Source of the DNA: a bacterium
Lineage (GTDB): Bacteria > Patescibacteriota > Minisyncoccia > JAHIHE01 > JAGLIN01
Length of the DNA: 37,864 nucleotides
Direction: 5' to 3'
Assembly (NCBI GenBank): GCA_030638825.1
Contig: DAOWDU010000029.1
Location: 1-37,864, forward strand
Of this stretch, positions 32,172 through 37,742 are shown piece by piece. Each line of letters begins with the position of its first letter. Position 1 is the first letter of the stretch. Made by a program: the position numbers and the translations under genes. Under the pieces are notes generated by a model, which saw only the letters and a list, made by a program, of their open reading frames with translations, had not been told where the DNA came from and did no database searches.

Positions 32172-32310
32172 TGTCATTGCGAGGAGCCCGATTGAGCGTA
32201 GCGAAGAGATGGCGACGAAGCAATCCCGTAATTAAATTCACTGGACATAGTTACGGGATTGCTTCGTCACTCCACTTCGCTATCGCTCCGTTACGCTCCT
32301 CGCAATGACA
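32172..32310. repeat. Palindromic element, TGTCATTGCGAGGAG family, copy 2
   Basis: 139 bp with tgtcattgcgaggag / ctcctcgcaatgaca ends, between tig and clpP. Confidence 0.9.
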
Positions 32311-33605: not shown

Positions 33606-33642
33606 TTGGTTTGTTTATTAATAATTTAATTTAATTACAAAC

Positions 33643-33780
33643 TGTCATTGCGAGAAGCCTTCGGAGCGTAGCGAACGAAATGGCGACGAAGCAATCCCGT
33701 GACCAAGTCATTTGGACATAGTTCTGGGATTGCTTTGTCGTTCAATTATCCTTCGGATAATTTCACTTCTCGCAATGACA
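33643..33780. repeat. Palindromic element, TGTCATTGCGAG family, copy 3
   Basis: 138 bp with tgtcattgcgagaag / cttctcgcaatgaca ends, between ppaC and tig. Confidence 0.9.
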
Positions 33781-33788
33781 GATAATTT

Positions 33789-35993: not shown

Positions 35994-36432
35994 AGTTTTT
36001 ATTTATTTAAATTAAATTTTGAATTATTTTGAAAGCCTTTTTTAAAAAAACCTATCCGTTTCTTCGGGTAGGCAATCGTTTCTCATCTCCTTAATAATTA
36101 CAGTGTAGCATAGAATAAAATTATGTCAAATTCATTAAACATCCAATATCCAGTTTCTAATTTCCCATTTTATACCACCCTAATTCTTCTTCATTAACAA
36201 CATATATCTCATCCCATTTTTTGCCGGAGCTGATAAATTCTTCCGCTGAAATATTAAGCCAGTGTTTGATTTTGTTGCTATCTATTTCATAAACTTTATA
36301 ATCGTTGCTTGCTCTGACAAGATAGCTTTCTTGATAATTATCTACCAAGGAAGAATTGACTTCTTGAACATTATCCCAATTCAAATGTCCGTAGAAATCA
36401 AAGATCTCTCCGTCTAAAATATGTCTCTTGTA

Positions 36433-36458
36433 AGCCTGTCCTGAGCCTGTCGAAGGAT
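36433..36458. repeat. Dispersed-type repeat CCTTCGACAGGCTCAGGACAGGCT inserted in frame (encodes PSTGSGQA)
   Basis: Plus strand agcctgtcctgagcctgtcgaagg; interrupts the repeat module relative to its neighbouring copy. Confidence 0.75.
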
Positions 36459-36520
36459 TGTTGATAATATAAACTTTGTAATTGTTGATAGCTCTGATTA
36501 AAGAGCCGTTAAGAAGATTA

Positions 36521-36549
36521 GTAGAGACGAGGCACTGCCTCGTCTCTAC
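36521..36549. repeat. 29-bp palindrome in coding sequence (gtagagacgaggca-c-tgcctcgtctctac)
   Basis: 14-bp perfect arms around one centre base; translated as (E)VETRQCLVST. Confidence 0.9.
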
Positions 36550-37742
36550 CTCATAAACTTCAGATACTCCTCCCGTCTCAGATCTGAACTTAAGATAGAC
36601 TTTTTTAGCATCAGGCAGAACTACATTTTCCTGATATGGCTCCCATGAGACATCTTTAAAATCAGGAGTGGTGGAGATTGCTATTTGATGAGCATTCTCT
36701 ACATTGCTGAGATTGATTGTCGTTTGGTTGTTAGTTGTGGTTATTTCAAAAGTTGGCTGGTTTTCGGAAGTAGGAATAATAGGAGGAGTTGAAGGAATAA
36801 AGCCGCTACTGCAAGCCATCGTTAAATTGAAGGTTGAGGAATCAGTTGAATTGCCGGCGTTGTCTATCGCTTTGACATACCAGATGTGAGCGCCGCAAGA
36901 TAAAGAATTACTTGAAGCAATAGAGGTCGCGCTGTTGCTGATATTGTCTGTATCTAAACTTCCGTCTATATAAAGCTGATATTTGGCAACACCAGAAGTA
37001 GCGTCTGAACCAGACCAAGCTAATGTTGGAGTATTGTCCCCAGTAGAACTATTATTAGCGGGAGAAGTAAGAGAAATAATTGGACCAGTAATATCCACTG
37101 TCCAAGTATGCGTTGTCGCTGATCCTTCGGCTTGCCAGTTGCCAGCAGTGTCTTTGCCGATTAAAGAAATGGTATGTTCGCCATCGGTTAAATCAGATAA
37201 AGCAAGATGAACGGCAATGGCTGTTTCACTGCCATAACTGCCAGAGTCTATTTTGTATTTGTAATGTGTAATGTCTGTTCCTGCGATAGTAATGTCTGTT
37301 GTGTTTTGATTAGTTGGATCAGCGGGAGCGCCAGAGTCAAAAGTGGCAAAGGAAGAAGCGGTATCTAAAACAAAACTTCCAGTGTTATATGAACTGCCTG
37401 CGTTTTCCAAACTGTCTCTGAATTGAGCATAAATTGTTTTACTGCCGTCAGCGTCTACGCATCCCGCGCCTGTCTTAATATTAAAATCTGTTTTTGGCGT
37501 AGCGTAATTTTCCCAAGTTGACCAAGATGAATTATCGCAGGAAAATCTCATTTGCGCGCTGGCTGTTCCTATTCCAGTATCGGCAATGGATAAATTCAAG
37601 GTTGGCGTAGTGTTATTTGTCGGATTACCTGAACCGTTAGAAATTGTCCCAGTAGAACCAGTAGTGTCAACGCCGACTGTCCAAGTAGAAGTTGATTGTC
37701 TGGAATTGCCGGCGTTGTCAATCCAGGGCTGTGCATTTATCT

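Follow-up and report, generated by a model that had tools for sequence, protein, structure and literature searches.

A dispersed GTAG-type palindrome lies in frame in a patescibacterial surface-protein gene and is probably a copy of a REP

GTAG-tagged REPs and their RAYTs have been described, along with scattered copies inside genes; in classical REPs the GTAG tag is unpaired (PMC3733652). RAYT genes have been described as flanked by REPs (PMC2817692). Recognition of GTAG together with a hairpin by TnpA-REP has been demonstrated for E. coli, among others (PMC8266576), and in-frame palindromes are known in Rickettsia (PMC10969869). A term search of the open-licence literature, which is weak evidence of absence, returned no report of a palindrome inside a RAYT reading frame or in the phylum Patescibacteria. 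Nothing relevant on in-frame palindromes in the Candidate Phyla Radiation was found in that literature, and we found no published biochemistry on patescibacterial RAYTs.

The window, that is, the whole stretch of 37,864 nucleotides that was analyzed, derives from a patescibacterial genome of 1.15 Mb in 57 contigs. At 36521-36549, it contains a 29-bp perfect palindrome, GTAGAGACGAGGCA C TGCCTCGTCTCTAC, composed of two 14-nt arms (36521-36534 and 36536-36549, both on the plus strand) with 100% complementarity and a 1-nt center. It is crossed by an ORF on the minus strand and is read in frame as VETRQCLVST (36520-36549, minus strand), one flanking base completing the last codon, exactly as the preliminary description had stated. 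The sequence GTAGAGACG occurs in the window only at the two arms; the chance expectation is 0.02, and none of 100 shuffles reached two occurrences. By arithmetic, a perfect 14-bp inverted pair at fixed spacing is expected approximately 37864/4^14 = 1.4e-4 times per window. Folded as single-stranded DNA, the palindrome region yielded -19.4 kcal/mol (z = -4.8), which was equaled by 0 of 200 shuffles. A palindrome arising by chance was ruled out by the shuffles, by the 13 copies in the genome, and by the 99 stretches elsewhere. GTAG forms the 5' end of both strands. On either strand, two of the three frames are open, encoding VETR[QH]CLVST and xRDEA[LMV]PRLY, and the third starts with TAG. Since the palindrome is the same on both strands and has two open frames, it is able to be coding, and both open frames are in use among the copies of the host and other genomes. 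Also noticed in the same window, between genes at 32172-32310 and 33642-33781, were two copies of a composite repeat that has TGTCATTGCGAGGAGC at its ends and contains an GACGAAGCAATCCCGT...ACGGGATTGCTTCGTC hairpin.

Pattern searches of the host genome revealed that the palindrome is dispersed in 13 copies, 12 of which are intragenic and in frame within long open frames. The genes, whose identities were assigned via NCBIfam/Pfam, encode Elp3, MiaB, a NifS-type cysteine desulfurase, MutM/Fpg (two copies), an Eco57I-type methylase, a YaeI-like phosphodiesterase, an O-antigen ligase, FemAB, a nucleotidyltransferase-like protein, and the surface protein of the window and its paralogue. The thirteenth copy (C28:2906) is intergenic, between a Fur-like gene and the start of a permease, which rules out a genic location for all copies. 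Two host copies are imperfect: that in MutM at C23:1032 is changed in one arm, and that in FemAB on contig C54 is altered at one end. In a simulation, a proportion of 0.50 of random 30-bp insertions had a frame of at least 40 aa on both sides; against this, 12/13 corresponds to a binomial P near 0.002, and 11/12, with the surface paralogues merged, to 0.003; as the null was drawn from loci of other genomes, this genic enrichment in the host is indicative only. The preliminary description had seen in the palindrome a dispersed, intergenic-type element tolerated or used as coding sequence, and had proposed a genome-wide count. Dispersal and coding were borne out by that count, whereas the intergenic character was not.

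An exact scan, with one genome per species, found the 29-mer in 99 stretches of other genomes. The carriers are mostly Patescibacteria (Moranbacteria, Falkowbacteria, Komeilibacteria, and Magasanikbacteria), with a few WOR-3, Omnitrophota, and Calditrichaceae and one member of the Chitinophagales. Approximately 40% of the copies in other genomes are genic; an open frame of at least 60 aa on both sides was present for 35 of 89 copies, compared to 4% and 41% for random insertions of 29 and 30 bp, respectively. In the congeners G001 and G002, the palindrome is located within the genes for RecO, TsaE, TsaD, and a class I tRNA synthetase. A search of viral contigs for an exact match to the palindrome yielded none, and a viral origin was rejected on this basis.

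Empty sites were compared between genera or species, against relatives rather than parents, so that junctions are approximate. The compared stretch of NifS has 120 nt in the host and 93 nt in 11 relatives, a gain of 27. Gains at the other sites were 21 bp for the phosphodiesterase (three relatives), 18 bp for FemAB (nine relatives), and 21 and 18 bp for the two MutM sites (one relative). All net gains (18, 21, and 27 bp) are multiples of three and never 29 or 30 bp, which rules out a uniform 30-bp insertion and implies that target bases disappeared during the insertion or afterward, the frame being kept. Measured against these relatives, the target loss is 2 to 11 bp, whereas clean IS200/IS605 insertion would give otherwise. 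Judged from these alignments, the palindrome replaces a few target bases, with selection keeping the frame. Neither translational bypassing nor excision of the element need be invoked, since the frame is kept and the palindrome contains no stop.

Other repeats occupy some of the same positions. In congeners, the loop of Elp3 and MiaB that holds the palindrome in the host is occupied by different dispersed repeats. One loop of the O-antigen ligase contains differing repeats in the majority of the family's genomes: two congeners have this palindrome there, at two positions, G391 has a GTAGGAACAAGGC palindrome, and four further genomes have unrelated repeats. Loops with such varied repeats are therefore recurrent landing places. 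Separately, we noticed dispersed-looking repeats in frame in the same loops of MiaB (L161, L162, and L163) and Elp3 (L160 and L165) of congeners, namely CHPELVSGSS, IPASAGMTRSVGMT, and PPRPLLQRGSTTPPFAKGA; it thus seems that several repeat families, unrelated to each other, are coding there. The O-antigen ligase loop, which follows FPLYFIITS, was likewise noted as an insertion hotspot with different in-frame repeats per genome (L119, L185, L272, L261, L262, L263, and L283).

In relatives, the palindrome is associated with RAYT genes. Of the 15 RAYT-like genes among loci of other genomes selected for the palindrome, 10 contain it in frame; in each, it is read as RDEA[LMV]PRLY and lies a short distance behind the HUH motif MPNHxHGI. 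Several of these genes have a further copy just upstream of the start. To remove selection for palindrome-bearing loci, a palindrome-free query was employed on 382 genomes of the phylum. Of 27 RAYT genes examined from this search, 14, including one of the host, harbor a GTAG...CTAC palindrome with varied cores at the same place. In a test in which every genome represents a different genus, the core in or beside the RAYT gene matched a dispersed core of the same genome exactly in 22 cases, with 3.6 expected from shuffles (P = 0.0002); allowing two mismatches, there were 47 matches versus 10.3. One REP is located upstream of several RAYT genes (L064, L075, L080, and C50) and one inside the ORF, and a downstream copy is present in some only.

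The HUH motif of the RAYTs is conserved, and they have a Y1 fold with similarity to 4er8, a solved RAYT-REP hairpin complex. The model of the host RAYT encoded on contig C50 (pLDDT 86.6) is confident except for the N-terminus and residues 91-120, a low-confidence (disordered) loop that includes the palindrome-coded part. Its best fold match is 4er8 (Foldseek E value of 2.8e-7), and a PDB profile search with the RAYT sequence also matched this entry. The core of the C50 RAYT gene agrees with a dispersed family in the host genome. However, the host RAYT-like genes with matching architecture (C50 and C23) have other cores in that loop, GTAGGGGCAGGTCGCGACC and a GTAGGGGTTGACC composite, and a cognate RAYT gene with the GTAGAGACGAGGC core was not found in the host genome. 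The mobilizer of this palindrome would therefore be absent, lost, or unassembled here. The RAYT-like gene on C23 (L115, 1560-2165) was also observed to contain, downstream of its HUH motif and in frame, the composite palindrome GTAGGGGTTGACC...GGTCCGCCCCTAC, with more copies beside it, and to adjoin the MutM gene with two in-frame palindromes.

We consider it likely that the element is a GTAG-type REP: one copy of a mobile palindrome that is non-autonomous, is moved by a RAYT, and is kept where the frame is preserved. According to this model, the RAYT (TnpA-REP, an HUH tyrosine transposase) would recognize GTAG and the hairpin on single-stranded DNA and would copy or move the palindrome. Gene-breaking insertions would be lost, and frame-preserving ones located in loops or linkers would survive. 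The data show that the palindrome is dispersed, is placed in frame in genes, replaces target bases with the frame kept, and is associated with RAYTs in relatives; its movement by a RAYT, and the manner of it, we infer rather than observe. Counted against the assignment as a GTAG-type REP are the pairing of GTAG with CTAC, a host without a matching RAYT, and a target loss unlike that of IS200/IS605.

The conservation of the arms allows other explanations. At four sites shared by the host and G001, 112 of 112 arm bases are identical, compared with 86% identity of the flanks (P of about 6e-8), and the central base is free among the copies (A33 G32 T28 C15). Divergence is seen in the second MutM copy (21/28), and the copies of G002 are changed too. 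Identical arms could be explained by selection on the hairpin, by recombination between copies, or by repeated insertion, each alone. Homogenization of copies of low mobility, by recombination or repeated reinsertion at the same sites, is rather doubtful; identical arms with a free center fit it, as does the variety of repeats in the O-antigen ligase loop, but the insertions in this loop occupy different positions, which suggests independent events and not conversion. We regard it as unlikely that the hairpin itself, as an element of mRNA folding, of translation pausing, or as a DNA-binding site, is under selection and more than tolerated. The excess of arm over flank identity argues for such selection, but the changes in MutM and G002 indicate that it is not universal, the host genes are functionally unrelated, and repeated exchange among copies would generate the same pattern. 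As a separate observation, both arms have changed together at L191:2766, L134:609, and L181:1086, with palindromy kept in coding sequence (GTAAAGAC...GTCTTTAC and GTAGGAACG...CGTTCCTAC).

The ORF of the window that carries the palindrome (36157-37599, minus strand) encodes a surface protein with Ig-like domains followed by KVYxI..KRHIL/KHWLNI modules. Its listed start is arbitrary; the open frame continues upstream, to 531 aa in total. By alignment, VETRQCLVST follows the Ig-like part (Pfam Big_13/Big_7 upstream) and precedes the first KVYxI..KRHIL module, in agreement with the linker position assigned in the preliminary description. The structure model of the window protein fragment has a mean pLDDT of 47. 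In L073, the closest homologue from another genome, the same linker is occupied by an unrelated peptide of about equal length, SEVVSDSIIYTNKSNPNISNGSLIRA; L073 carries the palindrome in a neighboring loop of the Ig-like domain instead. The homologue alignment that had been proposed thus revealed a relative without this insert at the linker. Neither is the sequence unique to this site, given its 13 copies, nor is the peptide conserved through nonpalindromic codons. A paralogue on contig C14 is 77% identical and has kept VETRQCLVST. The same ORF contains a second, unrelated dispersed repeat, CCTTCGACAGGCTCAGGACAGGC (36434-36456, minus strand), which is read as PSTGSGQA and was found at 16 places in the genome by pattern search with up to 2 mismatches; this peptide is common to the window protein and L073 at the same position. 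The palindrome fills the linker between the Ig-like domain and the next module, and VETRQCLVST probably has no specific protein function. That it is a functional linker to which the palindrome is incidental is very improbable, since its retention in the C14 paralogue is set against the unrelated linker of L073 and against RDEALPRLY being encoded by the same DNA in other genes.

We tentatively suggest that the patescibacterial RAYT gene holds its own recognition palindrome in frame, at a fixed position after the HUH motif, so that the RAYT may recognize its own gene or mRNA, and that REPs may be a continuing source of in-frame peptides in essential genes of a reduced genome. Self-recognition would represent autoregulation, or the palindrome would be an internal end of the REPtron. 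REPs were named for their extragenic placement, yet in this streamlined genome an element of REP type occurs almost exclusively inside genes. Likely essential ones are among them: Elp3, MiaB, and NifS in the host, and TsaD, TsaE, RecO, and a class I tRNA synthetase in congeners. This would be a clear case of mobile DNA supplying new peptide segments to protein loops. RAYT-internal palindromes would also make the pairing of transposase and REP readable from a single gene, and its specificity directly testable.

In comparison with known systems, the TnpA-REP proteins of E. coli and S. maltophilia (PMC8266576) are likewise HUH tyrosine transposases that recognize GTAG and a hairpin, and the fold match to 4er8 is in keeping with this. 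The REP described here differs in having no bulge and a 1-base center. Rickettsia palindromic elements (Ogata 2000; reviewed in PMC10969869) are also palindromic repeats translated in frame in unrelated protein genes, a feature found here as well. However, those first described are approximately 150 bp, whereas the present palindrome is 29 bp, occurs in another phylum, and is linked to RAYTs. GTAG-tagged REPs and REPtrons (Di Nocera 2013, PMC3733652; Nunvar 2010, PMC2817692) are palindromes of 20 to 40 bp beginning with GTAG, with several families per genome, an association with RAYT genes, and some intragenic copies, including in DNA-repair genes. At 29 bp, starting with GTAG, dispersed in 13 copies, and associated with RAYTs in other genomes, our palindrome resembles them. 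In contrast to them, GTAG is paired with CTAC in all perfect copies and the element is fully symmetric, for which reason we call it GTAG-type and not a canonical member. GTAG-tagged REPs are predominantly extragenic, whereas the host copies are nearly all genic, and unlike in REPtrons, the patescibacterial RAYT gene has a copy inside its reading frame and not in flanking positions alone.
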